Shown in pieces: positions 20,385-35,453 of a stretch of DNA of 64,000 bases (within the stretch, counting starts at the first letter, position 1; every line of letters starts with the position of its first letter). A program made the translations under genes and the position numbers. The notes under the pieces were generated by a model. It did not search any database and was not told where the DNA came from. It saw only the letters and a list, made by a program, of their open reading frames with translations. The stretch is from an uncultured Ruminococcus sp. (GTDB lineage: Bacteria > Bacillota > Clostridia > Oscillospirales > Ruminococcaceae): NCBI RefSeq assembly GCF_947301925.1, contig NZ_CAMYUE010000006.1, positions 62,001 to 126,000 of the forward strand. The letters are read 5' to 3'.

Positions 20385-22580
20385 TCAGTTTTTATGATAT
20401 TCGGGCGCATTACAGAATGACAGCTCCTTGATGTCCGCGTTGCCCGAGCAGTTGAAGGCGTCTAATTCAAATCCTGCCCAGGTCAGGATATCCTCGTCAG
20501 TATTGTCATCGAACCAGTATGCCAGGAAATCGTCGAGCGAGAGCACATCTTCGGTATGGGCGCTCTTGCCAACGGGTGAAACGGCGTCCTTGCGGTAGAA
20601 GAATATTGCGGAGGGTTCCGACACAGGGCCGTTGTGCTCGGTATAATACTCCTTGCCGTTTATGGTCGCGGTACCAAGTTTGCCCTCGTCCAGAGCTTTC
20701 TGAAGCGATTCGTCAAGTTGGCCGCCTTCTGTACGGAATTCATATATAACAAAGTGTGTTTCCTGTGTATTGCCCTTGTGGATGAAATTGCCGTAGAAGT
20801 GCATATCCATATCTCCGTCACTCATGATATCTGCGGAATAGCGGATATTGCAATCCGTGCACTTCTTGTCGGCGGCTTCTCCGTCGTAGAATTCGTAGCT
20901 GGTGAGTCTGTACAGCTTGGTGTCGTTCCATTCTGCCGAGACAGAGCCGTCCTTTCTGACGATGGCCTTGAGACTGTCATCGTTCACCTTGCCGCCGCTG
21001 ATCTCGAAAGAGCGCTCTCCGGTCTCTCCTGTCTTTTTGGCGTCTCCTATGATGAGCTCCGCTTCGTCCTGTGAAACAGGTATCTCGTCAATGGTGTTGA
21101 GTACGAATCTGGTCAGGAGAACGAGGTCGCTGACATTGCTTCTGAGGTCGCCGTTGACATCGCCCTCAACGGATATCATATTATCGTCCATGGCGTTCAG
21201 TATAGCTTTGCGGCATACGGGGATATCAAGGCTGTTGACCACTCCGTCGCCGTTGAGGTCGCCGCGCAGTCTCTTTGCTGCCGAGGTATATTCGGGCTCT
21301 CCCGAGGAAATGCAGAAATCATCTATATAGAATCCCACGGGTGATGATGGGGTGTAGACCAGTTTGTACTTGTGGTACGGGTCAAAATTTATCGTGAACG
21401 GGATATCGGTGATGCTTGTCCACTGTCCCGAGACGCACTTTCTTGTGCCCAGTGATATCCTTCTGAGATAATTCTGCGGAGCGTCACTGTATTCCACCAG
21501 CTCCACTTTCATGGACAGATCTTTTCCTGATTTCTGGAATATTTTTGCACCTGTGAGGTAATCCTTCTTTGCATAATACATTGATACGGGCAGATCATAG
21601 GGGTCTATCTCATAACAGAAAGCTCCGCTGTCGCCTGCGGTTATCTGCATGGACTGATCGTCGCTGTAGGCCTGTTCGTCGGTGAGTGCTGCCGTACAGT
21701 TGCCTTCGGTTCCTGCCTTGAAATCTTCACATTCCATATCCAGAGTTATTATGCTGCCGTCGTCGCCTACAGGGAGGGGATCATGCTTGGGATAGGCCTT
21801 CTCCTGACCCTTGGGTCCGAAAACGTAGTCATTGGATATTGTTCTGTATGTATTCATGCGCTTCAGTTCCATGGAGCCGGTGCTATTGAATGCGTCAAGC
21901 TGGAAATCGATCTCGTAAAGGTCTCCGAGAGGGAGGCCTGCTTCGCTCCACGCCTTGAAATGCTCTGCAACGTTTACTGTGCCTGCTACATGATTGCTGT
22001 GGTTTAGCTCCATTTGCTTGTTGATGCAGACGCTCCAGTATGAGTTGTAAGCATTCTCGCGGACACCATGCTGGCATTTATAGATCTGATAGTACTTGCC
22101 GTCAATGAAAGCAGTGGAAAGCTTTTGTATGTTGTCTCCTTCTGCTCCGGGAGGCATCCAGTCGCCATAGGCTTCAACTATATTGAAGGATATCAGCGGA
22201 TCAGTGAACCAGCCGCCGATTCCGATATATGCGTTTCCGGCAGTGGTGATATCAGCCTCGTAGTCTATTTCGTATTCCGATACACGATAGGCCTTTATGC
22301 CCTGATTTTCATAGCTTATGCCCTTGGTGACAGTCACATCGTATTTGGCGTCCCACTCGGCAGTGAAGCCGTTGGTACCGCTGTTTTCATAATTGCACAG
22401 ACTTTCTTCCTGGCTCTTAAAGACTCTGTAGCTGTAGCCGTCGATCTCGCCGCTTATTTCCCCACTGTCCGCCATTGCCGTTAGAGGAGCAAGGCTGCTG
22501 AAGCCGAGAGCTGAGGGAGCTCCTGTTATGCAGGCAGCTGCTGTCAGTGCTGAGACTATTCTTTTGATCTTTTTGTTCAT
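20385..22580 (-). CDS. secreted dockerin protein with two degenerate GH11-like domains and a CBM22-like domain
   Basis: A 731-residue exported protein (signal peptide 1-37, RBS GAGGTGG). Residues about 45-245 align clearly with the GH11 domain at 4257: GWFTDPLISFNIVEAYGDWMPP matches [22 protein letters not shown]. However, the nucleophile Glu is Ser131 and the acid/base position (VEGW) is LDAF with Asp229. A CBM22-like domain follows (about 285-425), then a dockerin (about 440-497, GDLNGDGVVNSLD and GDVNGDLRSNVSD). A second GH11-like unit (about 520-720) again lacks the Glu pair (THFVIYE, FELDAFNCSG). Architecture: pseudo-GH11, CBM, dockerin, pseudo-GH11. It may bind xylan without cutting it. 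Confidence 0.85.
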   Translation of the reverse strand: MNKKIKRIVSALTAAACITGAPSALGFSSLAPLTAMADSGEISGEIDGYSYRVFKSQEESLCNYENSGTNGFTAEWDAKYDVTVTKGISYENQGIKAYRVSEYEIDYEADITTAGNAYIGIGGWFTDPLISFNIVEAYGDWMPPGAEGDNIQKLSTAFIDGKYYQIYKCQHGVRENAYNSYWSVCINKQMELNHSNHVAGTVNVAEHFKAWSEAGLPLGDLYEIDFQLDAFNSTGSMELKRMNTYRTISNDYVFGPKGQEKAYPKHDPLPVGDDGSIITLDMECEDFKAGTEGNCTAALTDEQAYSDDQSMQITAGDSGAFCYEIDPYDLPVSMYYAKKDYLTGAKIFQKSGKDLSMKVELVEYSDAPQNYLRRISLGTRKCVSGQWTSITDIPFTINFDPYHKYKLVYTPSSPVGFYIDDFCISSGEPEYTSAAKRLRGDLNGDGVVNSLDIPVCRKAILNAMDDNMISVEGDVNGDLRSNVSDLVLLTRFVLNTIDEIPVSQDEAELIIGDAKKTGETGERSFEISGGKVNDDSLKAIVRKDGSVSAEWNDTKLYRLTSYEFYDGEAADKKCTDCNIRYSADIMSDGDMDMHFYGNFIHKGNTQETHFVIYEFRTEGGQLDESLQKALDEGKLGTATINGKEYYTEHNGPVSEPSAIFFYRKDAVSPVGKSAHTEDVLSLDDFLAYWFDDNTDEDILTWAGFELDAFNCSGNADIKELSFCNAPEYHKN

Positions 22581-22828
22581 TATTCATTCCACCTCTCTGT
22601 AATGCTTGATGTACCTGTCAAGTGAAAAGCATATACTTTCCATTATAATGATTTTACACTGATTTTCACAACAAGGCAAGTCGAAAATTGTTGATTTTTA
22701 TGAAGATGTGCTTTTTTTGCTGTCTGTATAGTCGGAGCTGCGGTATATGGGTGAAACGGGAATAATCCTTCCCTGCGGTGAATATCATTCAGTGACGAAG
22801 CGTCGCATTTGCGGAAGGAGAGATACTA

Positions 22829-23003
22829 ATGAAAAAAGCACACAGAAAGATATTCAGCGGAGCCGTTTTGTGCGGCGCTGCGCTGTTCACGCTTTACGGA
22901 GCCTCCCGTGTGGCGGAAAGGGCCGAAAACGCTGCGCTGCCCGCGGCACTGACCGATACGGATACCGAGATTCCCGTTATCGTGCTGGACGCAGGACACG
23001 GCG
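22829..23003 (+). pseudogene. cwlD: cwlD-like N-acetylmuramoyl-L-alanine amidase, 5' part, interrupted by the mobile element
   Basis: GGAAGGAGAGATACTA precedes the ATG. The reading frame gives an N-terminal signal/anchor segment (KIFSGAVLCGAALFTLYGAS) and reaches IPVIVLDAGHG, the first zinc-ligand motif of Amidase_3 enzymes, where it runs into element sequence and stops at a TAA 4 codons later (about 23013). The remaining amidase sequence is found in the same frame at 34887-35453. Joining at the shared CACGGCG gives DAGHGGIDGG without indel and a protein of about 244 residues, the usual length of CwlD. The native product would cleave the amide bond of peptidoglycan stem peptides; CwlD acts in spore-cortex lactam formation in sporulating Firmicutes. 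Confidence 0.88.
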
Positions 23004-23016
23004 AATCAACTTAAAC
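22997..23016. other. attL: left junction of the element
   Basis: Chromosomal GACGCAGGA, then the central dinucleotide CA (22997-22998), then the element arm CGGCGAATCAACTTAAAC. The five bases CGGCG are shared by chromosome and element. Confidence 0.8.
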
Positions 23017-23032
23017 ATAGTTCATTTAAATG

Positions 23033-23061
23033 ACATCGCTCCCCGAGCAGAGGAGCGATGT
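23033..23061. terminator. hairpin at the left end of the element
   Basis: Arms ACATCGCTCC / GGAGCGATGT, 9-nt loop, followed by TGTACTATTT. It would stop transcription coming from the cwlD promoter into the element. Confidence 0.55.
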
Positions 23062-23101
23062 TGTACTATTTATGCGGTTATAGGTTTATTCTGAAATACA
23101 T

Positions 23102-23125
23102 AATGCTCTCAACCGGGAGCATTTT
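23102..23125 (+). terminator. second small terminator-like hairpin
   Basis: ATGCTC-TCAACCG-GGAGCAT followed by TTTCC. Confidence 0.4.
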
Positions 23126-23158
23126 CCTGTTTGTTCAGTCTCTGGCGATTTCTTCTTA

Positions 23159-23371
23159 TCATGGAGGAGCAGTACTGTAAACACGACTGCCATCAGGAAT
23201 ATTGTCCTCCCACCAGATGCCCTTGCATATCTGACGGTACATGCCACAGGCCCAGACGGCACCCCCGATCATTACTGTGCCGATGATACCCACAAGCGGT
23301 TCCGGTTTCGGATTCTTATACTCTCGCCAGTCAGCTCCTAACCAAGCAGACCGAGCGAAACTCGCTTCTAC
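23159..23371 (-). pseudogene. remnant of an unidentified small membrane protein gene
   Basis: An open minus-strand frame of about 70 codons with no start codon at its 5' end. It reads ...GADWREYKNPKPEPLVGI, then a hydrophobic stretch (IIGTVMIGGAVWACGMY), then WWEDNIPDGSRVYSTAPP and a stop. Composition looks like a coding region; the 5' end merges into the terminator at 23385-23422. Family not recognised. The 23004-23432 interval otherwise holds only the two hairpins. Confidence 0.3.
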
Positions 23372-23384
23372 AATTATAAATTAA

Positions 23385-23422
23385 AATAGCCGCTTCAGAC
23401 ATTAACGTCAGAAGCGGCTATT
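23385..23422 (-). terminator. terminator of the large LRR-dockerin gene
   Basis: AATAGCCGCTTC / GAAGCGGCTATT arms with A/T tracts, 11 bp beyond the stop at 23433. Confidence 0.85.
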
Positions 23423-23432
23423 ATTATATTTA

Positions 23433-26288
23433 TCAGTCTGCCAGTATCTTCTTGCGGAACTCTGTCACATCAAAGATATCAGCGTTTCCATCACCGTTAA
23501 GGTCAGCGGACTTGAACTGCTTTTCATTGAATGTATAAGTACCGAGGATATACCTGTTCATGAGAACAAGATCGCCTACATTGAACTGTCCGTCACCGTT
23601 GATATCGCCGTTCTTATACAGCTTGGTATCGTCTATAGCCTCAAATTTCAAGCCGTACATATTAGCGTAAGCCTCAGCGGTAGAGCCCTCATAGCCATGG
23701 ATAACAGTTTCGGCAAGCGTCCTGCCCTTGACTTCTTGAAGCTCCTCAGCATATGTTCTTGCATCTGAATACAGCTTGTGATATCTTACCTCCTGAAGTC
23801 CTACGAGACCACTGCTCCATTCATAATGGATCTTGCGCATTGTCTGATCGCCTGCACATATCTCACATTCGGGATCATAGATATAGATATCTTTAAGAAA
23901 TACAGCATTCTTGAAAGCATCATAATCTAGTACATGAGAGAAAACATCGGCTCTTACAAGGCCTGCGCTGTTCTCAGCGATCATTTCCCAGCTCATTTTT
24001 GTTACACTGCTCGGGATAGTTACATTGCCTGATGCACCGAAGCTTGCAACGCCCACAGTACCTTCCTTTATATTGATACTTCCGGGATAATTAGCCGGGC
24101 TGTGTTCCGGACCAACGAACCAACCGTCCAGATATCCCAGACCTTTTTCATATTTAACTACAGGAGTTTCGGTAAAGGCTTCACAGCCCACGTAATTCAC
24201 GCTTTCGGGTATAGTTATATTTTTAAGTGAGGTACAGCCTGAAAATGCATTATCGCTCAGGATATCGAGATTTTCCGAAAGCTTTACTGTTTCAAGCTTT
24301 CTTGATGCACTGAAAGCACATCTGCCGATGATCTCAACACTGTCCGGGAGCTCGATGCTCTCAACATTATCAAGGCTGAAGAAAGCAAAATTCTCAATTG
24401 TCTTTACGCCGTCGGGAACAACTATCTTCTTGCCCGCATATCTTGACGGAACTTTTATGAGCTTTGTCATGTCCTTGCTGTAGATTATACCGTCAACAGA
24501 TATAAGATAAGGATTATCCTCGGCTACATCGTAATAAGCGATACCGTCCTCAGCCGCATCTACAAGGCATACATATTTCTCAACAGTTGCAGGGATATGT
24601 ACTATATCGGATTTACCCTGAAATACCTTTAAATTTTTCACAGGTACATCGTTTACGGTGGCAGGGATAGTTATCTCCTTTGGCACCTCTTTGCCATATG
24701 TGACTCTGCCCGAGCTTATCTGAGCAGTAGCGTATCCGCTGCTGTATACCCAGTAATCAACGCCGTTATCCATATCCTTGACAATTTCAGGGCCGACAAG
24801 TACATTCAAAGGCTCAAAGGCATCAAATACTCTTCTGTATTTAAGTGCATATTCCTCAGCTGTAGAGCCTTCAAATCCGCGGATTATAGTATCATACTTT
24901 GCAGGATTGCCTATCTTGATAGGTGCGGAATATACCTTCTCTACAGGCTGAACTTCTGCACTTGCAGAGGTATCATCTGTATTCAGGTTTGTTTTATTGG
25001 CTTTCTCCATGTAATGCCCTATCTTGGTTATTGTCGCGCTCGACGGGGCAATATCCTCATCAAGCTCTACCAGAGAAGTGTTTATAGCCTTCAGAGTATT
25101 TGCCGCTACATTTGCAGAAGTAACGCGAGTGTGCTTTACAGTATAATCGTTTTCTTCATCTATGTCAGTTTTGCTCTCCGGAGCTTCCTTAGGTTCTCTC
25201 CAGTATGAAGGTATAGTAATTGCGTCATCCTCTATCTTACAGTCGCGGTCATTTATCCATACTTCCTTTACAGTCGGGCAGGAAATGCTTCTTGCAGGAA
25301 TAGCAGAACAGTTAAATACGACCAGTTCCAGAGGCATATAAATTCCCAAGGCAAGAAATCTGCCAATATGTCTGACTGATGCAGGAACTGTTATTACCTT
25401 AAGATTGTTTTTTTCACTGAAAAGGCCTTCGATAGTACCAACTGTATCTGCACGTATATCAGCACGTTCTATATCGTTATCTGCGCCTACAGCCCACTTG
25501 TCAACGTAGTGAATACCGTCCTCAACAACGATAGCACCGGAGTCCCTGAAAGCTTCAAAATAAATATTCTCAACAGAATCCGGTATTTTGAGATCCTTCA
25601 GAGCTTTTGTTCCAATAAATGTATCCTGATTTATCTCTTTTACACCGTCAGGGATATTTACAGAGATCAGATTGATACAGCCTGCAAAAGCACCGACGCC
25701 TATCTCTCTTACGTTATTGCTTACCTCTATCTTTGTAAGATTATGACACGCAATAAAAGCATAAGGATCTATTGTCTCTGCTTCATCGGCTATCTTTATC
25801 TCAGTTGCACTGTTTGAAGGTGGGAAAGCAATAACTGTTTTCATATCTTTGCTGTAAAGTATACCGTCAACAACTGTAAATGCTTCGTTGTCCTCGATAA
25901 CAGCTATTTCCTCGATAGTCTGCTCTGCTATATCATTCCAGTCAAAAACGCTTACATTCTTGCCTAGAGTCAGCTTTTTGATCTTGGAACAGTCCCTGAA
26001 TGCACCCCATTCTATACCTACAACAGGCGTATTGTCAATAGTCTCGGGAACTGTGAATTCCTCAATATTATGATCGCTGACATAATGAACGGCTGCATAT
26101 CCGCCTTTAAAGATATTATATGTAACGCCGTCTTCCGTCTCGCTGTACATAGCACTATCGAAATTATATTCCACAGCAGCTTCTGTTTCTGAAACTGTCT
26201 CAGCAGCCGCATTGAACGGCACAGTTGCTACAGAACTTGTGATGACAGTAAGTGCAGCAAGAATTGAAATAACCCCCTTGATTTTCAT
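23433..26288 (-). CDS. large secreted leucine-rich-repeat (BspA/LRR_5) protein with C-terminal dockerin
   Basis: A 951-residue exported protein in the mobile element. AGGAGGTAAATTATT precedes the ATG and a signal peptide covers about residues 1-29. Two LRR_5 arrays are visible (about 65-460 and 510-870), each with a beta segment, ITVPASVRHIGR/VTIPSSVTKMSW-type repeats and an ending of the form GFEGSTAEEYALKYRRVFDAF / GYEGSTAEAYANMYGLKFEAI, so the protein is an internal duplication. A dockerin is at about 885-945 (GDINGDGQFNVGDLVLMNRY, DLNGDGNADIFDVTEFRK). No enzyme domain. Predicted to be a cellulosomal or surface binding protein. AT-rich codon use compared with genes outside the element. Confidence 0.86.
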   Translation of the reverse strand: MKIKGVISILAALTVITSSVATVPFNAAAETVSETEAAVEYNFDSAMYSETEDGVTYNIFKGGYAAVHYVSDHNIEEFTVPETIDNTPVVGIEWGAFRDCSKIKKLTLGKNVSVFDWNDIAEQTIEEIAVIEDNEAFTVVDGILYSKDMKTVIAFPPSNSATEIKIADEAETIDPYAFIACHNLTKIEVSNNVREIGVGAFAGCINLISVNIPDGVKEINQDTFIGTKALKDLKIPDSVENIYFEAFRDSGAIVVEDGIHYVDKWAVGADNDIERADIRADTVGTIEGLFSEKNNLKVITVPASVRHIGRFLALGIYMPLELVVFNCSAIPARSISCPTVKEVWINDRDCKIEDDAITIPSYWREPKEAPESKTDIDEENDYTVKHTRVTSANVAANTLKAINTSLVELDEDIAPSSATITKIGHYMEKANKTNLNTDDTSASAEVQPVEKVYSAPIKIGNPAKYDTIIRGFEGSTAEEYALKYRRVFDAFEPLNVLVGPEIVKDMDNGVDYWVYSSGYATAQISSGRVTYGKEVPKEITIPATVNDVPVKNLKVFQGKSDIVHIPATVEKYVCLVDAAEDGIAYYDVAEDNPYLISVDGIIYSKDMTKLIKVPSRYAGKKIVVPDGVKTIENFAFFSLDNVESIELPDSVEIIGRCAFSASRKLETVKLSENLDILSDNAFSGCTSLKNITIPESVNYVGCEAFTETPVVKYEKGLGYLDGWFVGPEHSPANYPGSINIKEGTVGVASFGASGNVTIPSSVTKMSWEMIAENSAGLVRADVFSHVLDYDAFKNAVFLKDIYIYDPECEICAGDQTMRKIHYEWSSGLVGLQEVRYHKLYSDARTYAEELQEVKGRTLAETVIHGYEGSTAEAYANMYGLKFEAIDDTKLYKNGDINGDGQFNVGDLVLMNRYILGTYTFNEKQFKSADLNGDGNADIFDVTEFRKKILAD

Positions 26289-26751
26289 AATAATTTACCT
26301 CCTATATCAAAAATATATACAGTATATATACTACAATAAATTATATCAGTTGTGTTTCTGTATGTCAATATTTTTGCTGCGAAGCTATCCAGACTTTCTA
26401 AATGTTGCTCTTGACTTTTTTATGTTGATATTGTATTGTTGCAAATCCGATGCGCCAGATTAGTATAGTTTATTTGCGAAGGGAAGAAATAAGGAATAAT
26501 GCGAGCAGTAAGACTTATTTCTGACCAACATTGAGCAAGTCGCAGGTTCGGGTTTTGTCAACCACGCCGAAAAACAAATTGCCTGTATTGCGAATTTTTA
26601 CCGATATTCAGGTGGCTTTCTTATATTCTGAAAGCAGCTGTGATTCTGTATAAGCACTTTAATAACATAAAAAACACACAGAAAACCACACGAAATAGAG
26701 TAGTGATACAAAGCTAATAAAAGAAGCAGCTCCCGTAAGGGAGCTGCTTTC
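26289..26751. other. AT-rich intergenic region inside the element
   Basis: Contains the upstream region of the LRR-dockerin gene (ATATATACAGTATATATACT near 26310), no ORF with a ribosome binding site, and near 26536-26560 a sequence vaguely like the T-arm of a tRNA (GCAGGTTCGGGTTTTGTC). The SRAP terminator (26725-26748) is at its right edge. Confidence 0.4.
26725..26748 (-). terminator. terminator of the SRAP gene, now read through by the frameshifted frame
   Basis: AGCAGCTCCC-GTAA-GGGAGCTGCT hairpin followed on the minus strand by TCTTTTATT. The shifted reading frame translates through it. Confidence 0.75.
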
Positions 26752-27383
26752 TTATAAACTGATTTTACTTTCTCAACTATAGCACTGGGATTTCTGTCAG
26801 GACGTATCCAGTCCTTCACGTCTTCCTTATCCAGTATAAGCGGCATTAGGTCATGTATATCTCTTACAATACCGACTGCTTCTTTGGTGAGCACAGTGAA
26901 CATAGGGATCTGCATACCGCTGTGTTCCTCATATCGATATAAACCAGCGATATACGTTATATCAGAGCCTTCGGTCTGAATAGCAAACTTGACCTTTTTA
27001 GTATTCCGGTGCCCGACCATACTGCGACTGTCTTTTTCATATACAGGATATCCCCACTCATAATACCAAGAGGCAGGAATTACACATCTTCGCCTGTACC
27101 AGGAGTCTCTCCACATAGTTTTTCTGTCAGCGGTCTCTATGCGGCAGTTTGCAAGAGGCTTTGGAGTTGCTTTATGTGTAAATCCCCATGCCATAGGGAA
27201 TATAGCTATTTTTCCTTGCTTGTTCGACGCAAGAACAGGTGCTATATCTGACGGATACAAGTCACCGGACATGGATAGGCTCTTTCCAAGCTTTACTGAC
27301 ATTTCCTGAGCAAAGGGCATTTTTCTTATTTTTATGAGTACTTCGGCCATTTACTTTGGTTCTATACGCAATGACATACACAT
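26752..27383 (-). pseudogene. SRAP/YedK-family (SOS response-associated) protein gene with early stop and late frameshift
   Basis: The expected start is the ATG at 27383 after GGAGGTGA; it encodes Met-Cys, the catalytic Cys2 that SRAP proteins use to crosslink abasic sites in single-stranded DNA. After ten codons (MCMSLRIEPK) an in-frame TAA follows, directly abutting an ATG (TAAATG at 27348-27353) from which the rest is open. Family blocks are intact: NCRIETADRKTMWRDSWYRRRC, IPASWYYEWG and HDLMPLIL. Near the 3' end the frame shifts around GTAAAATCAG; one extra A would give VEKVKISL and a TAA at 26752-26754, just before the terminator. Without it, translation runs to 26598. Reinitiation would make a protein without Cys2. 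Confidence 0.75.
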
Positions 27384-27471
27384 GCAACTCACCTCCAAGC
27401 ACAACGAGATTGGAATATATGTTCTGCCACGATTATATCATATGAAGATACATTTGTCAAGATAAAAGAAG

Positions 27472-27493
27472 GACCGCCCGTTAAAGGGCGGTC
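27472..27493 (-). terminator. terminator of the LRR-dockerin gene at 27513
   Basis: GACCGCCC-GTTAAA-GGGCGGTC hairpin with AAGATAAAAGAAG before it on the plus strand (T-rich on the minus). Confidence 0.8.
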
Positions 27494-27512
27494 ATCAAAT
27501 TAGTATATTTTC

Positions 27513-28730
27513 TTAGTTCTTTTTCATATATTCTTCCATTGACATAGGAGTGTCTTTTGTAGTCGATACATACGCATAGTACGCAAGAATACTCGATGCG
27601 TCTACGGCATTGATATCTCCGTCGTGGTCAACATCTGCTGCAAGCTTTTGCTCCTCATCATATCTACTGTCCTGATTTGTTGAGGTCAGTGCATAATAAG
27701 CAAGAACTGATGAAGCATCTACTGCGTTTACATTCCCGTCAAAGTTCACATCTCCCATGTCAGAATCAACGGGTACAAAGATGCGATCATACTTATTGGC
27801 GTAAGCCTCGGCAGTAGAGCCTCTGTATCCTTTGATAATACCTGTATAGGCATAACCGGCACCGTTGGTAAAGGTCGAATTCATGTCGCTTATATCACAT
27901 TCGGGATTAAGTATGCAGACCTTTTCAAGAGAATTGCAGCTCTGAAAAGCACTCGGTTCTATTTTCTCTACCGATTCGGGTATTGTCACCGATTTCAGTG
28001 ATCTGAATCCCTCAAAAACACGGCTTTCTATTATCTTCACCGAATCAGGGATAACGACCTCTGTTACTGACCAATATCCCCAACCCTGAAAACATCTCCG
28101 ACCTATACATTCAACTCCGTCAGGTATGACAATCTTTTCCGTATCGATTCTTGCAGCAAGAAGAACACCGTTTATTACCACAAAAGGCGACTTCTCAAGC
28201 TGCTCTTCCTCCCATTTGGTGCCTGAGAAAGCCCCGCCTTCTATCTTTGTGGCTGTTGAGGAGATCGTTATTTCCGCATTACTACAGGACTTAAAAGCCT
28301 CATGTTCGACTACCGTCACAGAAGCGGGTATTACGATGGAAGTGAGAGCGCTGCATTCAGAAAACGCAACAAAGCCAATGGTTTTCAGAGTATCGGGAAG
28401 GGTAACGGACACAAGGTTCTTACAAGAATTAAAATTCTGATCTCCGACTCTTGTTATCCCTTTGCTTATAACCACCTTTTTTATAAGATCTCTTTCTTTT
28501 ACCCACGGAGTATTTTTGACAGGACCTACATCGCCCATATCTCCCTTGCCTTTGACTACCAGGGTACCGTCACTGTCCAGTTGCCAGCTGATATTCTCAC
28601 CATAGTTGCCGCTGTCAACTATGGTTGCAGCTTCAGCCGAAAGAGTTACAGGTACTCCCAGCGAAAGTGCTGTCGTTCCCAACGGTATTACAGCACATAT
28701 CAACGCTGCTACTATTCTTTTACAATTCAT
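27513..28730 (-). CDS. secreted leucine-rich-repeat protein with dockerin, element-borne paralogue of 12227-13465
   Basis: A 405-residue exported protein; GGAGGTATACT precedes the ATG, and residues 1-34 form a signal peptide. The same plan as the chromosomal protein at 12227-13465: GENISWQLDSDGTLVVKGKGDM (beta segment), LRR_5 repeats such as ITRVGDQNFNSCKNLVSVTL, the GYRGSTAEAYANKYDRIFVPV stretch and a dockerin (about 325-390; GDVNFDGNVNAVDASSVLAY and DVDHDGDINAVDASSILAY). The two dockerins are nearly identical, so the two proteins likely share a cohesin partner. It lies 14 bp after the HhH gene, in the same operon. Confidence 0.87.
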   Translation of the reverse strand: MNCKRIVAALICAVIPLGTTALSLGVPVTLSAEAATIVDSGNYGENISWQLDSDGTLVVKGKGDMGDVGPVKNTPWVKERDLIKKVVISKGITRVGDQNFNSCKNLVSVTLPDTLKTIGFVAFSECSALTSIVIPASVTVVEHEAFKSCSNAEITISSTATKIEGGAFSGTKWEEEQLEKSPFVVINGVLLAARIDTEKIVIPDGVECIGRRCFQGWGYWSVTEVVIPDSVKIIESRVFEGFRSLKSVTIPESVEKIEPSAFQSCNSLEKVCILNPECDISDMNSTFTNGAGYAYTGIIKGYRGSTAEAYANKYDRIFVPVDSDMGDVNFDGNVNAVDASSVLAYYALTSTNQDSRYDEEQKLAADVDHDGDINAVDASSILAYYAYVSTTKDTPMSMEEYMKKN

Positions 28731-28744
28731 AGTATACCTCCTGT

Positions 28745-28975
28745 CTATTCAACATCCAAGAACTTTTCTATGACAGCCATTATCTCTTCAAGGCGCTTAC
28801 CTCCGATACCTTTTATCTTGCTGAGTTCTGCCTCAAGAGCCGGGAGATCAATTGTCTTGCCCTGTTCTCCGAGAAGCTCGTCTCCATACTGGAGAATGAA
28901 CTTTGTAAGCTCCTCGCGGTTCATCTTCTTGATCTTCTTATACGTGTCTCTGTCAATAATCTCTTGATTTGCCAT
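28745..28975 (-). CDS. small helix-hairpin-helix protein
   Basis: A 76-residue predicted cytoplasmic protein (AAAGGATCTATAT before the ATG). The C-terminal half contains a helix-hairpin-helix motif, LSKIKGIGGKRLEEIMAVIE, as in non-specific DNA-binding domains; the N-terminal half is a charged helix (DTYKKIKKMNREELTKFIL). Possible DNA-binding accessory protein of the element. It precedes the LRR-dockerin gene by 14 bp, an unusual pairing of a DNA-binding-like protein and a cellulosomal protein. Family not identified with certainty. Confidence 0.65.
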   Translation of the reverse strand: MANQEIIDRDTYKKIKKMNREELTKFILQYGDELLGEQGKTIDLPALEAELSKIKGIGGKRLEEIMAVIEKFLDVE

Positions 28976-29067
28976 ATATAGATCCTTTTTTTGTTTCTTG
29001 TAACCTATTATACCATATCATTTATACCATGTAAATACATAAATCAGAACCGATATATCATTACATG

Positions 29068-29099
29068 AAAAAGCTCCGCGATATGCGGAGCTTTGTTTT
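29068..29099 (-). terminator. terminator of the sigma/anti-sigma operon
   Basis: AAAGCTCCGC-GATAT-GCGGAGCTTT with T-run on the plus side and A-run/T-run on the minus, 10 bp beyond the stop at 29110. Confidence 0.8.
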
Positions 29100-29109
29100 T
29101 AATTCAGTT

Positions 29110-30918
29110 TTATCCCCAGTAAGCTAAAAGCTTGCCGTCACAGCCGCGGATATAAAAGAACGGAACGGTGCCAGGGGTTGCTATATGATATTTTCCGTCC
29201 TCTGACGAACCTGAAAATAACGTAGGATAGAATACCCATATGTCATAGTCCTCATGATAGTTTGCTACATATATAGGATTGTCTCTGTATACTGTTATGC
29301 CATTAGGTTTTACTATATATTCTTTGTTTTGATTATCTATATATTCCTGACCTCGGAGGTTGAGCAATATCTCTTTGCCTTTTTCGATAGCGTCTTCTTC
29401 ATCGACAATTGGACCAAGTACCCTTTCAAATGGTACTATCTCAGCTTTATGGAGCATATAGTTTATTTCGTTCTTGTAATCGACCATATTTCCGTTTTCA
29501 TCCATTGCCTCGTAAGAGCCCTCATAGGAACCATCCCAACCATTATGTTCTGACATATAAAACTCTCTTACAAGCTCTTCATCAGTCTGCTCTGTTTTTA
29601 CAGGTTCATCTTCCGGTTCTTCCTCAGGAGGTGCAGTTTGTTCGGTAGTAGTAACTGTAGTCGTTTCAGCTGTAGTTGTTGTAGATGTAGTTACTGCTGT
29701 TGTGGTTGTTTTTGCCTCGATGGAATACTTATCATCGTACTTGCCGCTTGCAATGTCTTTGAGTACAGTCTCAAACTCTTTAATGTCGATATAGTAGTCT
29801 GAACAGCCTGTAGGGATATCACCGTATTCGGTCAACTCATATTCACAGAGGTTGGCAGCACCATTGCTGCTGATGTAGTATGTCAATCTGCGGGTAGTTG
29901 TGCTGCTTGTCTTATAATAGCAGGCAACAGTAAAGAGCAAATCATTGCTGTTATATTCGATAGACTTATCTTTTTGCAGCATACCAACGAAATCATCTCT
30001 GAGGAAGCACTGAAGAGCGTTGTATGAATTTTGAACATCGGAAATAAATGCTTCTGAATCGTATCTCTTACAGCGTTCTACAATACCATTCCGGAATTCG
30101 CCCTGAGTGAGATACATTTTATCTCTTTTAGAGAGATATTCGCTTGTATCGGGAACGTCACTGCTCAGGATATCCTGTATGCCATTATCAAGAGCTTCAT
30201 AATCAATATTATATACTGAGCTTTCGATGATAGGATAATTAAAGCAGTTGCCGTCAGGCTGACATTTTTTGGCTAAATAATATGATTTTCCGTTCTCTGT
30301 CACATAGACATAAAACCATACGTCACCCTTTCGCCAACTGATCGCATATCCCTTGCCATTATATCCGTCGCCTTCAAAGTTATTGAAATCAGGGATATCC
30401 ATTTCTTTGATATCGTTTCCTTCGCCCCAGGTAAAATTATTCAAGAATACAGCGAGCTTATCATATGTTTCAGATGAATAATCAGTTGAATCTTCGTCAT
30501 ATGACTCATTGAGACTACATAATCCGAAATATACCTGCTTGAAATCAACGAATGGAGCAACAGCGCCGGAATCAACTATATTATCAGACTCGGTCGATTC
30601 TGTGTAAAAAACATCTTTCTCGGCTAAAGCTGATTTATTAGCCTTATTTTTGTGGAGCAGGAAACCTGTAGCACCTAATCCCGTTACAAGTACAGCAGCG
30701 GCAGCCAATGAGCTTACTATACGCAGCGTGTTGTTCGAGGAATTTATATTATCTGTGCCGGTTACTTCCTCGGTGTATTCATCTTCATTTGTGGCTTCTG
30801 TTTTATTATTTTTTGCAGAAAAAAGTTTTTTTAACTTAGAGTTCTTCATTTTCTTTTCCTCCTCATATTGAGCTATGCGGCGGTGTACATTCTCGATCAT
30901 CTCTTCATGTCTCAACAT
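29110..30918 (-). CDS. transmembrane anti-sigma-like protein with large extracellular domain
   Basis: A 602-residue protein. The start at 30918 (MLRHEEMIENVHRRIAQYEEE) follows CGGAGGGG and overlaps the end of the sigma factor gene by 14 bp, so the two are translationally coupled. Residues about 1-65 are a charged cytoplasmic segment, one transmembrane helix follows (about 67-90, VSSLAAAAVLVTGLGATGFLL), then about 340 extracellular residues, a Thr-rich linker (TTTTAVTTSTTTTAETTTVT) and a C-terminal domain of about 130 residues. This is the plan of membrane anti-sigma factors such as RsgI-type sensors, but no known anti-sigma domain was recognised; the role is inferred from coupling and topology. 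Confidence 0.72.
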   Translation of the reverse strand: MLRHEEMIENVHRRIAQYEEEKKMKNSKLKKLFSAKNNKTEATNEDEYTEEVTGTDNINSSNNTLRIVSSLAAAAVLVTGLGATGFLLHKNKANKSALAEKDVFYTESTESDNIVDSGAVAPFVDFKQVYFGLCSLNESYDEDSTDYSSETYDKLAVFLNNFTWGEGNDIKEMDIPDFNNFEGDGYNGKGYAISWRKGDVWFYVYVTENGKSYYLAKKCQPDGNCFNYPIIESSVYNIDYEALDNGIQDILSSDVPDTSEYLSKRDKMYLTQGEFRNGIVERCKRYDSEAFISDVQNSYNALQCFLRDDFVGMLQKDKSIEYNSNDLLFTVACYYKTSSTTTRRLTYYISSNGAANLCEYELTEYGDIPTGCSDYYIDIKEFETVLKDIASGKYDDKYSIEAKTTTTAVTTSTTTTAETTTVTTTEQTAPPEEEPEDEPVKTEQTDEELVREFYMSEHNGWDGSYEGSYEAMDENGNMVDYKNEINYMLHKAEIVPFERVLGPIVDEEDAIEKGKEILLNLRGQEYIDNQNKEYIVKPNGITVYRDNPIYVANYHEDYDIWVFYPTLFSGSSEDGKYHIATPGTVPFFYIRGCDGKLLAYWG

Positions 30919-31465
30919 ATTCAAACCCCTCCGTTTCAAGCTGTGATCTGAGTGATTTACGAGCACGATATAGAATGGATTCAAGGCTGCGGAGGCTCTT
31001 TCTCATGATCCTTGCAGCTTCTTTGTTACTAAATCCTTCAAAATAAATGAGCCATAACACCTGTTGATATTTCGGATTGAGTTTTCGCATTGCCTTATGT
31101 ATCATAATCTGTTGTTCTTTCCTGATATAAGCCTCTTCAACAGCAGTTTCATCATCTATCATTTCAGGTGTATCTTCAATAGAAATACAGTTCTTCCTTG
31201 AATCTTTGCGAATATAATCTACCGCAAGATTTCTGGCGATGGTATAGAGCCATGTCTTGAACGAGCTTTTTTCCTTGAATTTCGGTTTTTTTGTGCCAAG
31301 CAGGACAAAAGTATCTTCGGCAATCTCTTCGGCTTTCTGAACATTCCCGACTATGCTTGCCAGGTAAAGTATCAGACCATCGCAGTATTCTATTATTATC
31401 TCATCTAATCCGTGTACATCACTATTGTCACGAAAACGGCGGTAGCTACTTGCACCGTTATCCAT
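30905..31465 (-). CDS. ECF-type RNA polymerase sigma factor
   Basis: A 186-residue protein; the start at 31465 follows AAAGGAG, while the upstream in-frame ATG at 31504 has no site. Sigma-2 region: YCDGLILYLASIVGNVQKAEEIAEDTFV through SSFKTWLYTIARNLAVDYIRK (about 25-90). Sigma-4 region: MRKLNPKYQQVLWLIYFEGFSNKEAARIM with the helix-turn-helix (about 125-178). No sigma-3, as expected of ECF factors. Coupled to the transmembrane partner downstream, so probably released by an outside signal. It lies in the element with dockerin genes on the same strand, which are candidate targets. Confidence 0.9.
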   Translation of the reverse strand: MDNGASSYRRFRDNSDVHGLDEIIIEYCDGLILYLASIVGNVQKAEEIAEDTFVLLGTKKPKFKEKSSFKTWLYTIARNLAVDYIRKDSRKNCISIEDTPEMIDDETAVEEAYIRKEQQIMIHKAMRKLNPKYQQVLWLIYFEGFSNKEAARIMRKSLRSLESILYRARKSLRSQLETEGFEYVET

Positions 31466-31505
31466 TGACAAACTCCTTTCCGAAAGCTTTTCCTGTGCTT
31501 TCACT

Positions 31506-31514
31506 TATTAGACG
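31506..31514 (-). promoter_or_regulatory. possible ECF -10 element upstream of the sigma factor gene
   Basis: CGTCTAATA on the minus strand, 41 bp before the sigma ATG, resembles the CGTC-containing -10 of several Firmicutes ECF promoters and would fit autoregulation. A matching -35 (TAGTTTTTTC or GTAGAAAAAG upstream) is not certain. The 31515-31823 stretch is AT-rich and holds no ORF with a ribosome binding site that I trust. Confidence 0.3.
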
Positions 31515-31823
31515 ATATGAGAAGAAAAAACTACGCGCTTTTTCTACATTTTTTAAAATATTCGTTTTATATGAAATATGCTGTATTTTTTATGGCGTTT
31601 TTGTTTATGCTGCATCTTAGTATTACAAATGACTTTTTCTCTACTGTTGTTAACAGAACTAAAATATTTCAAAGAATAACGTTTCCTCCAATCGGAGGGG
31701 ATTCTTTCTATTTATTTTATTTAAGTGTCTTTACAATTATATTATATCCTGTTGAGGTAAGAAGGTCAAGCATAACATATATAATGATCGTCTCGAATAC
31801 AATTGAAAGGCAGGTGATAAATA

Positions 31824-31943
31824 ATGGATGATAAAATATATACCAAAAGCAGCTTCAAAACGGCTGATATCGAGCGTTTGAAAAAAGCTGTCACAGAGAA
31901 GATAGAGAAGCTCGTAAACCGTCAGGTGAAGAGAACAAACTGA
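31824..31943 (+). CDS. 39-residue charged peptide directly upstream of the serine integrase
   Basis: AGGCAGGTGATAAATA precedes the ATG; the peptide starts MDDKIYTKSSFKTADIERLK and is a single basic amphipathic helix ending VKRTN. It ends 33 bp before the integrase ATG and is co-directional, so it is probably in the integrase operon. Small basic proteins beside serine integrases are often recombination directionality factors or integrase regulators, which is a hypothesis here. Too short for family assignment. Confidence 0.6.
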   Translation: MDDKIYTKSSFKTADIERLKKAVTEKIEKLVNRQVKRTN

Positions 31944-31976
31944 ACAAAAACATATTAAAACAAGGAGGTGAGGTCA

Positions 31977-33548
31977 ATGCCGAAGGTAGCTATATATTGT
32001 CGTTTGTCCATAGAAGACAAGGATAAGGCAGAGAATGATTCAAGCGCAAGTATACAGAATCAAAAGGCAATGCTTCGTGATTACTGTCATGAGCGCGACT
32101 GGGAGATATATGACATTTATGTTGATGACGGGTACAGTGGCATTGACCGCAGCCGTCCTGAATTCAACCGTATGCTCAGGGACTGCGAGACTGGAAAAAT
32201 CGACATCGTCTTGTGCAAAGACCAATCCCGTTTTTCCCGTGATACTGTAATCGTTGAAAAGTACATCAACGACAAATTTCTTGAATGGGGCATACGCTTT
32301 ATCGGAGTTGCTGACAACGCTGATACGGAGAACGAGAGCTATTCCACGATGCGGCTGTTCACTAGTGCCTATAATGAAATGTACGTCAAGGACATTTCCT
32401 CGAAAATTCGGCGTACCCTCGCTTATAAGCGAGAGCAGGGGCAGTTTATAGCCTCTTTTGCGCCATACGGTTATCAAATTGATCCCGAGGACAAGCACCA
32501 CCTCGTTATCGACGAGGAGACCGCACCTGTTGTGCGGATAATATTTGATATGTATGTCAGCGGCGAGGGCTACCGCAGGATAGTTCAGGAGCTGAATACC
32601 GACGGTATCGTAAGTCCAACTGAGTATAAGCGTCAGAAGGGCTCAAAGTACGTTAATACTAATGCTGATACAAGCAATGCACATGGGCTTTGGACGCAGT
32701 CAACTGTTGCAAGGATTTTACATAACGAGGTGTACACCGGGACGCTTGTGCAGGGGAAGTCTCACCACATCAGCTACAAAAATAAGAAGCGTAAGCAGGT
32801 GGAGCAGGCGGAATGGGTACGAATACCGAATGCCCATGAGCAGATAATCGACGCTGAAACATGGTCACGCACACAGGAACGTCTTAACAGCCATGGTAGA
32901 GTGGGAAAACGCTCACAGGAGCTCCCACCGCTGTCAGGCAAGGTAAGATGTGCTTGCTGTGGACGTCCCATGAAACGGAATATTTATTATAACAAGGCAA
33001 AGACCATAAAGTACTATGGTATGCAATGCGCCACATATAAGACTGGCGCAATGAACTGCCCCAATAAATCAAGTATCAGCGGTCTTATCCTCGAAAAGCA
33101 TATCCTTGACGAGCTTAACATAATCGTGGAGCAGTTCTGCAATGCTGACGAGATTAAGCTTGCGGATATTCACTCCGAACAGCTAAAGGAGCTTAATCGC
33201 AGACTCAGTACACTTGAAGACAGGCATAAAACAGCTAAGGAGCGCCTTGTTAAGGTGTACAAGGAGAAGCTTGACGGATTATTGTCAGATGACGACTATG
33301 CAATGTTCCGTAAGAGTCTAAACGATGAGGAGAACGATCTTGCGGAACAGGTAGCAGAGGTAAGTAAGCTGATTTCGGTCTGCCGAAAGCGTCAGGAGAA
33401 TGCTGAGGGGCAGAAGGCTCTGATCAGGCAGTATACTCACTTTGACAAGCTTGACCGTAATATCGCCGACGAGTTCATTGACTATGTCGAAATAGGAGAG
33501 AGCGGCAAGAACGGAGAGCGCGAGATTCATATTCACTGGAAATTATAA
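31977..33548 (+). CDS. large serine recombinase (site-specific integrase)
   Basis: A 523-residue protein; the ATG at 31977 follows AAGGAGGTG, and an in-frame GTG at 31968 overlaps that site. N-terminal resolvase domain (about 1-150) with the nucleophile Ser in VAIYCRLSIEDK and the LCKDQSRFSRD block; a Recombinase domain (about 160-290, RRTLAYKREQGQFIASFAPYGY); a zinc ribbon (VRCACCGRPMKR and Cys pairs up to NCPNKSS, about 320-360); and a C-terminal coiled coil (LNRRLSTLEDRHKTAKERL). Catalyses integration and excision between attP and attB. All expected parts are intact, so the element may still be able to excise. Confidence 0.95.
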   Translation: MPKVAIYCRLSIEDKDKAENDSSASIQNQKAMLRDYCHERDWEIYDIYVDDGYSGIDRSRPEFNRMLRDCETGKIDIVLCKDQSRFSRDTVIVEKYINDKFLEWGIRFIGVADNADTENESYSTMRLFTSAYNEMYVKDISSKIRRTLAYKREQGQFIASFAPYGYQIDPEDKHHLVIDEETAPVVRIIFDMYVSGEGYRRIVQELNTDGIVSPTEYKRQKGSKYVNTNADTSNAHGLWTQSTVARILHNEVYTGTLVQGKSHHISYKNKKRKQVEQAEWVRIPNAHEQIIDAETWSRTQERLNSHGRVGKRSQELPPLSGKVRCACCGRPMKRNIYYNKAKTIKYYGMQCATYKTGAMNCPNKSSISGLILEKHILDELNIIVEQFCNADEIKLADIHSEQLKELNRRLSTLEDRHKTAKERLVKVYKEKLDGLLSDDDYAMFRKSLNDEENDLAEQVAEVSKLISVCRKRQENAEGQKALIRQYTHFDKLDRNIADEFIDYVEIGESGKNGEREIHIHWKL

Positions 33549-33580
33549 CGGTATGCTGTTATGCGGCATACCGTTATTTT
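33547..33580 (+). terminator. terminator of the integrase gene
   Basis: AACGGTATGC-TGTTATGCG-GCATACCGTT followed by ATTTTT; starts within the stop codon. Confidence 0.8.
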
Positions 33581-33592
33581 TATGAAAATATG

Positions 33593-33621
33593 TTTACAAC
33601 TTCTATATGGTGTGATATAAT
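33593..33621 (+). promoter_or_regulatory. promoter of the HipA-like gene
   Basis: TTTACA (33593-33598), 17-bp spacer, TATAAT (33616-33621). Confidence 0.65.
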
Positions 33622-33676
33622 AAAAATAATGATATTTGTATCGTACAGCGTACAATTTGAGGAGGAGCGTGATAAA

Positions 33677-34756
33677 ATGGGTTATAAGGTAATGCACAGA
33701 GATAAGATTATTGCACTTGCAGATGAAAACGGAATATCGGAAATACTTGACAAGGCGCTTTGCCCTGCCTGTTTTGTATTAGGAATGCCGCTTGAAATAT
33801 GGCTGGATAACAGAATAGTTGATATTCACCGCTCCCATTCGAGAAAGCTGTTCAAGGCTCTGAGACTGCGTACTCCTGATGATTTAGGTCAGGTAATAGA
33901 TATCGGACACGGAATCTCTATTACCGATAACTGGTGGATACAGCGGTCTGATGAAACATTGGACTATCGTTCGCTGAAAAAGTATAATGAGGAGCTTGCT
34001 GATATAGCACTTTATGGTGCTTCTGCTTCAAACAGCGGAGATACTTCGGGCTACAGAGAGCTTGGTACAGTAGGCAGCTATGAAAAGGCATGGCGATATA
34101 TCGATGATGCTTGGTATATGTTCAAACAGGGAAATACACAAGAGCTTATCAGCGAATACTATGCCTATCTTTTCCTCAAGGCTATGGGCGTAAATGTTGC
34201 TGAGTATGAGCGGATGTCCTATACTTCTGAGGAAACAGGTATTACTTCTGATTTTATTGTATCAAAAGATTTTACTGATAATGCAAAGGTGGATTTCGAG
34301 CCCTTTTGTAATTATTTCAGCGATCATGACGAGCCTGAATATATAATTCCGAGACTTGATGAAAAGCTGATAACGCCTTATGTTATGATGATATTCTATG
34401 ACGCTCTGCTCCATAATGACGACCGTCATAATCAGAACGCAGGAGTTCTGCGGAACAGCACCACAGGTGAAATTATCGGGCTTGCTCCGTATTTTGATTA
34501 TAATCTCGGACTTATTGCAACAGGTGTGCCGAGGATAGATGCCGAAAAAGGAAATATCTTCACAGACAACTTCCTTGCTAATGATGTATGCAGAACGATT
34601 CTGAAAGCCAATCTTCCAAAACGTGAAAAGATAATTGAAGCAATCGGTGCCGCTTCAGCGGGAGTCAGAATACCGGGAACAATATTGCTTGTAAAGCTTG
34701 ATCCTATCATGAATTATATCAGAGATACCTATGATTATCTCGCAAACCATATCTGA
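33677..34756 (+). CDS. HipA-like kinase domain protein, element cargo
   Basis: A 359-residue protein; the ATG at 33677 follows GGAGGAGCG. Kinase features of the HipA fold are visible: the catalytic loop LLHNDDRHNQNAGVLR (about residues 250-265, base Asp in NDDRH) and the metal-binding YFDYNLGL Asp about 20 residues later; GTVGSYEKAWRY may be the ATP loop. HipA proteins are Ser/Thr kinases that can act as toxins or phosphorylate translation factors. No HipB-like repressor gene is adjacent and the N-terminal HipA subdomain is divergent, so it is an orphan HipA-type kinase; a role in element maintenance or defence is conjecture. Own promoter and terminator. Confidence 0.75.
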   Translation: MGYKVMHRDKIIALADENGISEILDKALCPACFVLGMPLEIWLDNRIVDIHRSHSRKLFKALRLRTPDDLGQVIDIGHGISITDNWWIQRSDETLDYRSLKKYNEELADIALYGASASNSGDTSGYRELGTVGSYEKAWRYIDDAWYMFKQGNTQELISEYYAYLFLKAMGVNVAEYERMSYTSEETGITSDFIVSKDFTDNAKVDFEPFCNYFSDHDEPEYIIPRLDEKLITPYVMMIFYDALLHNDDRHNQNAGVLRNSTTGEIIGLAPYFDYNLGLIATGVPRIDAEKGNIFTDNFLANDVCRTILKANLPKREKIIEAIGAASAGVRIPGTILLVKLDPIMNYIRDTYDYLANHI

Positions 34757-34762
34757 GAATGT

Positions 34763-34796
34763 GATCCATAGAGTTTTCGCTCTATGGATCTTTTTT
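34763..34796 (+). terminator. terminator of the HipA-like gene
   Basis: GATCCATAGAG-TTTT-CGCTCTATGGATC followed by TTTTTT. Confidence 0.9.
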
Positions 34797-34800
34797 ACTC

Positions 34801-34828
34801 TTGACAAATAAAAAATACATGATATAAT
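34801..34828 (+). promoter_or_regulatory. outward-facing promoter at the right end of the element
   Basis: TTGACA (34801-34806) and TATAAT (34823-34828) with a 16-bp spacer, right after a strong terminator and pointing out of the element into the amidase 3' half. The predicted start (about 34835) is only a few bases before the ATG at 34839, so the message would be nearly leaderless. Confidence 0.75.
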
Positions 34829-34838
34829 ATATGTACAA

Positions 34839-35453
34839 ATGCCTGTTTTAAGCCAAAAACGCGACTTAGTTTTAGTTGATTCGCCGCACGGCGGCATAGA
34901 CGGCGGCTGCACATCTGCGGAGGGTGTTCCCGAAAAAGGCATAAACCTGGATATACTGCTGCGGCTCCGCGATCTGCTGGAGGTCAGCGGCTACGAGGTC
35001 AGAGTTACCAGAGATACAGACAGATCTATCCACGATGAGGGGATAGAGGGTATCGCCGCGCAGAAAAGCTCGGATATGGATAACCGCCTTGCAGTGTTCA
35101 ACGGAAGCGATAACGCGGTATGCGTTTCCATACACCAGAACCAGTTCACCGATCCCAGATTCAAAGGGGCGCAGATGTTCTACTCGGGCAGCAACAGCTC
35201 CAGCGAAGCTCTTGCAAGGGCGCTCCAGGACAGATTCAGGGAGCTTCTTCAGCCCGAAAACGACCGCGAGATAAAGCTGTGCGGAAAGGAGCTCTTTCTC
35301 TGCTATTACAGCGAGAACCCAACGGTCATGGCGGAGTGCGGCTTCATGTCCAATCCCGATGAGGCAGCGCTGCTGAATACGGAGGAATACCGCGGAAAGG
35401 TGGCCTTTACCCTCCTTGCGGGGATAAATGATTTTGTGGGGAGGAAAAAGTAA
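34839..35453 (+). pseudogene. cwlD: cwlD-like amidase, 3' part, with an element-derived start
   Basis: From 34887 onward this is the rest of the amidase opened at 22829. The zinc and catalytic residues of Amidase_3 are all present: the His of HGGIDGG, Glu in EKGINLDI, His in VSIHQN and the catalytic Glu in MAECGFMSN. The first 16 codons come from the element (MPVLSQKRDLVLVDSP), replacing the signal peptide, and happen to rebuild VLVDSPHGG, close to the native VLDAGHGG. The outward promoter at 34801 could transcribe it, but no ribosome binding site is visible. A product, if made, would lack an export signal. Downstream a short gap and a terminator follow. Confidence 0.83.
34869..34893. other. 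attR: right junction of the element
   Basis: Element arm GTTTTAGTTGATTCGCCG (34869-34886), central CA (34887-34888) and chromosomal CGGCG, continuing into the amidase codons GGC ATA GAC. Confidence 0.8.

Follow-up and report, generated by a model that had tools for sequence, protein, structure and literature searches.

The stretch of DNA analyzed here, called the window in the following, comprises 64,000 nt from an uncultured Ruminococcus sp. (genome of 3.49 Mb, 99.9% complete) and contains a gene for a CwlD-family amidase that is interrupted by an element of 11,890 bp (positions 22997-34886). The 5' half of cwlD (22829-23014, plus strand) encodes the N-terminal segment up to DAGHG, runs into the element and then stops, and the 3' half (34887-35453, plus strand) encodes the Amidase_3 domain from HGGIDGG to the stop codon. 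The core CACGGCG is present at 22997 and 34887, and joining the flanks at this core yields a frame of 735 nt and a single protein of 244 amino acids without any indel. The left junction (attL, 22997-23016) consists of the core (22997-23003) and the right attP arm CGGCGAATCAACTTAAAC (22999-23016), the right junction (attR, 34869-34893) of the left attP arm (34869-34886) and the core (34887-34893), and both arms are kept in relatives. Joined to each other, the element ends form a palindrome with 18-bp arms around a central CA, in which 17 of 18 arm positions match and one is a mismatch. The GC content of the element is 41% compared with 50% for the rest of the window. An original prediction made from the sequence alone, namely a cwlD-like amidase split in its zinc motif by an 11.9-kb element, an in-frame fusion of CwlD size, a palindromic attP with one mismatch around CA and a large serine integrase within the element, was confirmed by this analysis; the split at DAGHG itself also stands, but the position 22999-23003 given for this motif has to be corrected, since the last nucleotide of DAG is 22996 and the core follows from 22997 on. 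We consider it likely that the insertion interrupts cwlD as a non-phage gene-intervening element and is excised during development.

The integrase (31968-33548, plus strand) has 526 amino acids with Resolvase, Recombinase, zinc-ribbon and DUF4368 domains in Pfam. The first three of these domains together with a palindromic attP around a central dinucleotide are the features of a large serine integrase system, and a serine recombinase of its own, attL and attR with a common core and in-frame rejoining are those of a gene-intervening element. A gene for a 39-amino acid peptide, a candidate recombination directionality factor, is located at 31824-31943 (plus strand), and a predicted sigma-E-like promoter of this peptide-integrase operon (31775-31803, plus strand) is composed of ACATATA (31775-31781), a spacer of 14 bp and AATACAAT (31796-31803). 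A similar predicted promoter precedes cwlD (22760-22788, plus strand) with GAATAAT (22760-22766), 14 bp and AATATCAT (22781-22788). On the opposite strand we noticed by eye a predicted divergent sigma-A-like promoter, TTGACC-N17-TATAAT (31741-31769, minus strand), which might keep the operon quiet in growth; the same arrangement was seen by eye in one relative (G119) too.

The best model for the joined protein is TIGR02883 (spore_cwlD) with 194 bits and an E-value of 2e-57, below the equivalog cut-off of 221.55, and among solved structures the germination-specific amidase 7rag is its best match (E-value 2.4e-35). In combination with the sigma-E-like motif before cwlD, these matches place the element inside the coding sequence of a sporulation gene, one presumably required for spore germination, with a CwlD assignment that lies under the equivalog cut-off. 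In C. difficile, both cwlD and the skin-element gene CD1234 depend on sigma-E (PMC3789822), and germination is severely impaired in mutants that lack CwlD or PdaA (PMC8496864). In the genome of the window the match to sigE is just above the cut-off, and SpoIVA is present in 121 of 125 genomes of the genus, which was judged to be Ruminococcus from named relatives.

With the joined protein as query, a match was found in 114 of these 125 genomes and none in 11, and the matches were sorted into classes by hand. Whole cwlD genes are present in 71 genomes, two of them broken by a contig end, 36 genomes match only from approximately residue 46-55 on and are therefore regarded as split, five have only the 5' part, and two show only a weak match (row not listed). 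Relatives thus do carry the intact amidase for which the original prediction had suggested a search, and the split is not shared by all of them. The identical junction was also read in 18 split genomes of eight further genera, which were picked among the matches listed and do not represent a rate. Altogether, the break lies directly 5' of the zinc-motif His codon in 54 of 54 split genomes (36 + 18, including that of the window), always with the core CAYGGHGG, and the same junction at the same codon in so many genomes excludes chance. The majority bases of the left arm over 48 split genomes are TAGTTTAAGTTGATTCGCCA, from which a few deviate, and the right arm following the 5' half is conserved too, typically as AATCAACTTAAAC. 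A left arm like CAGTTAAGACATACGCACCA is found in a second integrase branch (G091, G215, G316, G321 and G359; integrases 49-52% identical), the arm of G028 resembles this branch, and G201, with an integrase of about 40% identity, has yet another arm.

The integrase was matched in 33 of 125 genomes of the genus, of which G056 and G085 reach only 39% identity and were not counted as orthologues. The remaining 31 integrases (at least 49% identity) belong to 28 split genomes, two intact genomes with cassette arrays (G010 and G021) and one genome with the 5' part only (G089). An orthologue is therefore present in 28 of 36 split versus 2 of 71 intact genomes (Fisher p 2e-16, the two intact genomes with a 39% integrase being left out), and, when only split genomes with a completeness of 90% or more and a contamination of 5% or less are counted, in 18 of 19. 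In a family-level search the integrase was detected in 10 of 297 genomes at an E-value of 1e-120, the window's own included. Among the nine carriers outside the genus eight are split, and the ninth (G367) has an unbroken cwlD on one contig and a 5' half with an attL arm near the integrase on another. Close integrases are carried by Ruminococcus flavefaciens ND2009, MA2007, YL228, XPD3002 and YRD2003 as well as by metagenome-assembled genomes from rumen or gut.

The 3' half of cwlD is open to its stop codon in 54 of 54 split genomes (186-192 codons), as it is in 46 of 46 intact ones (185-192 codons). A stop codon lies at most 15 codons upstream of HGG in 41 of the 54 split genomes, and in 44 of them the stretch from the last in-frame stop to HGG is devoid of start codons. 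For close pairs chosen by hand, the ratio of non-synonymous to synonymous substitution (dN/dS) in the 3' half amounts to 0.013-0.058 for split-split pairs, compared with 0.011-0.063 for intact-intact and 0.032-0.084 for mixed pairs (six of each kind); the values for G037/G030, G095/G038 and G012/G075 are 0.014, 0.014 and 0.046. The pair G037/G030 probably goes back to one old insertion, because several kilobases of element DNA are held in common in blocks of 3.6, 1.8, 1.0 and 0.5 kb with 89, 92, 87 and 81% identity, the last two being inverted, while the cwlD 3' half and its surroundings are 90% identical; in both genomes a stop codon lies 5 codons ahead of HGG. Between these two elements, the segment bearing the integrase is in inverted orientation, and a contig break falls inside the integrase of G030. 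Strong selection on a frame that has no start codon of its own is best explained by rejoining.

A peptide gene lies directly 5' of the integrase in 35 of 35 loci given, a count that refers to the looser of the search patterns (34 and 32 of 35 with stricter ones) and leaves out four loci with an incomplete integrase. The peptides have 37-48 amino acids, 39 in 25 of 35 loci, and the gap to the integrase is 19-31 bp in 32 loci, with an overlap in the other three. The gene is under purifying selection: among the 25 loci with 39 amino acids, synonymous change exceeds non-synonymous change in 299 of 300 pairs. The 39-amino acid peptide has no match in Pfam or PHROGs, and it is by position, size and conservation that we regard it as a candidate directionality factor.

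A strict sigma-E-like motif, defined as [GT][AC]ATA..-N13-15-CATA[ACT]..T, precedes the peptide-integrase operon in 17 of 35 loci, always with a spacing of 14 bp and in 16 of 17 cases at -48 to -51. It was found neither in 322 control regions, which were picked mechanically before open frames of at least 150 amino acids in 27 loci and are not all in front of genes, nor before six integrases of other branches, nor in the 35 reversed regions, and shuffled sequences gave 0.19. With a relaxed motif, 24 of 35 loci are positive compared with 3 of 322 control regions, and the two copies in the window, before the operon and before cwlD, fit the relaxed pattern only. Upstream of cwlD the relaxed motif is present in 26 of 33 usable intact genes and 15 of 19 usable split 5' halves (strict form: 17 of 33 and 7 of 19). 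As spoIVA follows another frame in several genomes, spoIIIAA, which is a sigma-E operon in B. subtilis, was taken as control; the relaxed motif was found in 22 of 29 cases, with matches to spoIIIAA that are all below the model's cut-off, one of the 30 best loci dropped for want of a start, and up to 220 bases searched, longer than elsewhere. A loose form of the B. subtilis sigma-E consensus gave 20 of 63 against 0.7 expected, and another loose form 13 of 32 against 0.22 expected. The second integrase branch seems to have a sigma-A-like promoter over an inverted repeat instead, as seen by eye. An Rfam scan of the window gave no match. In known elements either the recombinase or its factor is under sporulation control (PMC5595907).

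Selection on the start-less 3' half, the conserved peptide gene and the sigma-E-like motif before the operon lead us to favor programmed excision over plain inactivation of cwlD. The comparison with developmental skin elements in the original prediction is strengthened by this selection and by sigma-E-like motifs on both the integrase operon and cwlD. The bacterium would probably carry the element safely and remove it when making a spore, since the predicted promoter of the integrase is of the mother-cell kind; it is from this promoter that we infer timing and cell type of excision. In growing cells the element would be integrated and inherited together with its cargo, and cwlD would be interrupted. 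The 39-amino acid peptide would then probably turn the integrase to excision, attL and attR would be recombined at the central CA, and the element would exit as a circle with the palindromic attP, leaving cwlD rejoined in frame. The rejoined gene would allow cortex muramic lactam to be made, and the mother cell would die afterwards, with the forespore chromosome retaining the element.

Several observations weigh against this interpretation. The excised junction was not seen in the assembled sequence of the strain of the window, and R. flavefaciens is not known to form spores. The CwlD 3' half was not found in 18 of 125 genomes of the genus, six of them among 68 good ones, which reflects either assembly loss or permanent loss and could include decayed cases invisible to the count of open frames. 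Of the five genomes with a lone 5' half, two were read to have an attL-like end. In a tree of 100 3' halves, the split genomes are interspersed among the intact ones, which indicates that gain and loss are frequent; many insertions may therefore be young, and open frames would prove little there. Comparable element DNA in G095/G038 and G012/G075 extends over only 0.37 and 0.44 kb (91% and 87% identity), a comparison that is limited by contig ends. With regard to the promoters, the strict motif precedes spoIIIAA in only 3 of 29 cases, and neither the strict nor the relaxed form was found at 16 readable starts of spoIVA (4 of 20 starts were not found). Moreover, the motif ratios are not clean probabilities, as the loci are related to each other and the patterns were loosened after inspection of the sequences upstream. 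As a side observation, the genomes with a lone 5' half for which no 3' half was found are G054, G024, G069, G123 and G089, possibly cases of permanent loss.

The most serious competitor is an ordinary integrative element that uses cwlD as attB and inactivates it by insertion, with the 3' half appearing intact because insertions are recent or CwlD is not needed. The interleaving on the tree and the genomes without a 3' half are in line with such an element, and the family is mobile: the integrases of G091 and G215, which belong to different genera, are close (proportions of synonymous and non-synonymous differences, pS 0.21 and pN 0.011), whereas their cwlD 3' halves are not (pS 0.68, pN 0.219), so that the integrase moves between genera. 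We nevertheless regard this explanation as unlikely. The dN/dS of 0.014 in G037/G030 comes with kilobases of common element DNA and a stop just before HGG, none of the 54 3' halves found is decayed, the sigma-E-like motif lies on the integrase operon and hardly on the 322 control regions, and cassettes that restore cwlD exist, as described below.

A switch at the population level, in which excision takes place in a fraction of growing cells independently of sporulation, has a much smaller chance of being correct. It could account for attP junctions in 7 of 125 assemblies of the genus and for G080, in which cwlD is unbroken and a separate contig of 3.5 kb carries an attP junction beside the 3' end of an integrase (L380, C104; L395), compatible with a free circle. 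Besides an excised circle, this contig may represent a tandem copy, which would give the same junction; in addition, the G080 assembly is only 64% complete and its integrase piece 56% identical. The predicted sigma-E-like promoters also argue against such a switch, and CwlD is not known to have a role in growth. That the 3' half functions alone, translated from a start inside the element, is hardly credible: such a start is found in 10 of 54 split genomes, including the window with an ATG at 34839 that opens the frame into the 3' half, but it is missing in the other 44, and the product would have neither the N-terminal segment nor the DAG part of the zinc motif.

Four further candidates were rejected. 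A prophage does not apply, because no phage structural family was found among the eight element proteins scanned in Pfam. A PHROGs search with four element proteins assigned the integrase to integrase families and one protein to families of unknown function, with no match for two; relatives of the integrase in IMG/VR are 29-39% identical, and the attP centre pattern had no match in viral_contigs. An integron was discarded as the recombinase is a serine recombinase and not an IntI tyrosine integrase; attC sites were not searched for. Exact rejoining and intact orthologues speak against two unrelated genes instead of one split gene, and the junction in 54 genomes against an assembly artefact.

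Apart from the recombination genes, the element encodes cargo proteins. On the minus strand these are two BspA-type leucine-rich repeat (LRR) proteins with type I dockerin (23433-26288, 951 amino acids, and 27513-28730, 405 amino acids) and an SRAP (SOS response associated peptidase) family protein between them (26598-27350), all assigned by Pfam, followed by a small helix-hairpin-helix protein of 76 amino acids (28745-28975; 21 bits, under the cut-off of 24). A 624-amino acid protein without family match (29110-30984, minus strand) adjoins the gene of an extracytoplasmic function (ECF) sigma factor of 199 amino acids (30905-31504, minus strand) and is, by this position, possibly its anti-sigma factor. 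Downstream of the integrase follows a HipA_C-like cargo protein of 388 amino acids (33590-34756, plus strand; 23.6 bits, under the cut-off of 30.5). A GH11 protein with dockerin is encoded at 20385-22580, just upstream of the cwlD 5' half and outside the element. Dockerin proteins are encoded by split elements of relatives too, namely a GH9 cellulase in G043 and a GH127 protein in G099.

In four genomes (G009, G010, G015 and G021) an unbroken cwlD is accompanied by two or three extra cwlD 5' halves each, located upstream on the cwlD contig, on other contigs or, once, 1.6 Mb away (G009). Each of the 10 extra 5' halves terminates with the right attP arm, and those within one genome differ among themselves; a fragment of 29 residues in G010 is excluded from the 10. 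The units are cassettes that each end in a cwlD promoter region and 5' half, ahead of the unbroken cwlD (L051:4400-17700 in G015, L048 in G010, L043 and L044 in G009). In G015 and G010 one or a few genes lie between the 5' halves, with an LRR protein, a CotH-dockerin protein and an RTX-repeat protein as cargo in G015 and an LRR protein in G010; the dockerins of these LRR proteins are just below the cut-off. Tandem units are recognizable by whole attP junctions in G010, G021 and G099. A mirror image of the 5'-half cassettes is seen in G003 (L054, C20:52000-65701), where approximately 8 kb downstream of an unbroken cwlD a second 3' half lies behind an attR-type arm at the contig end. One unit of G009 (L044:5016-8443) and one of G021 (L046:805-4231) are 99.3% identical over 2.95 kb after the core and only 75% identical in the 5' half and upstream of it, and the cwlD 3' halves of both genomes are 86% identical. 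This change from 75% before to 99% after the core places the boundary of the exchanged unit at the crossover site, as expected for site-specific exchange between species.

It is possible, although we propose this only tentatively, that cwlD serves as an integron-like exchange point and cargo platform for fibre-degradation genes, at which excised autonomous elements and cassettes with their own 5' half use the same site. Autonomous elements would break cwlD, and their excision would be restricted to the dying mother cell and controlled by sigma-E. Cassettes would supply a cwlD promoter and 5' half of their own and would insert either via a chimeric junction or through homologous recombination within the 5' half, with a functional composite gene as the result; they would form tandem arrays and be transferred from species to species, in many cases together with dockerin (cellulosome) cargo. 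The hosts would be rumen and gut relatives of Ruminococcus, and their germ line would be protected by the death of the mother cell.

Beyond the original prediction, the data reveal a mobile family in several genera, cassettes with spare 5' halves in some relatives and a conserved peptide gene before the integrase. A cwlD-intervening element was not found in our literature searches, which left most subscription papers out of reach, and a search for dockerin together with serine integrase gave no report of such an element. According to the most recent list consulted (PMC10747680), intervening elements of this kind occur in sigK, spsM, spoVFB, gerE and yabG; cwlD would add a new target to them, and its hosts are gut and rumen bacteria for which spore formation is little known. 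If true, this predicts that relatives of R. flavefaciens still sporulate. The analysis also yields a 39-amino acid candidate directionality factor with some 30 related integrases whose sites can be read, and it points to a way in which dockerin genes may spread among fibre-degrading bacteria.

Among systems outside sporulation, staphylococcal cassette chromosome (SCC) elements accumulate in tandem at one site, as likewise seen for the cwlD units, and the integrase has the Ccr recombinase CcrB, alongside XisF, among its better matches to named proteins; unlike in SCC, the cwlD site is within a gene, which is either interrupted or made whole again by the carried 5' half. The arrays of short, sometimes single-gene cassettes at one site resemble integrons, from which they differ by a serine instead of a tyrosine recombinase and by cassette ends that are a piece of the host gene. 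Within sporulation genes, skin in sigK of B. subtilis and C. difficile and yin in yabG of C. botulinum are likewise serine-recombinase elements, and they are excised to restore their gene; in contrast to the cwlD element they are prophage-like (PMC3789822, PMC10747680). The predicted promoter logic resembles that of B. subtilis skin, vfbin and gin, where the recombinase itself is sporulation-specific, and is unlike SP-beta and C. difficile skin, where only the factor is (PMC5595907). A close likeness exists to gin in gerE of Bacillus cereus ATCC10987, a non-phage element in a mother-cell sporulation gene with serine recombinases, an imperfect inverted repeat at att and the 42-amino acid GirX, which is needed for rearrangement and is expressed at sporulation together with the recombinases (PMC5595907). 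The cwlD element shares the non-phage character, the serine recombinase and the imperfect inverted repeat, its small peptide being a candidate factor only. It differs from gin, as described there, by one recombinase instead of three, by cwlD as target, by a peptide gene directly before the integrase, by a family read in nine genera, by dockerin cargo and by cassettes with spare 5' halves in relatives.

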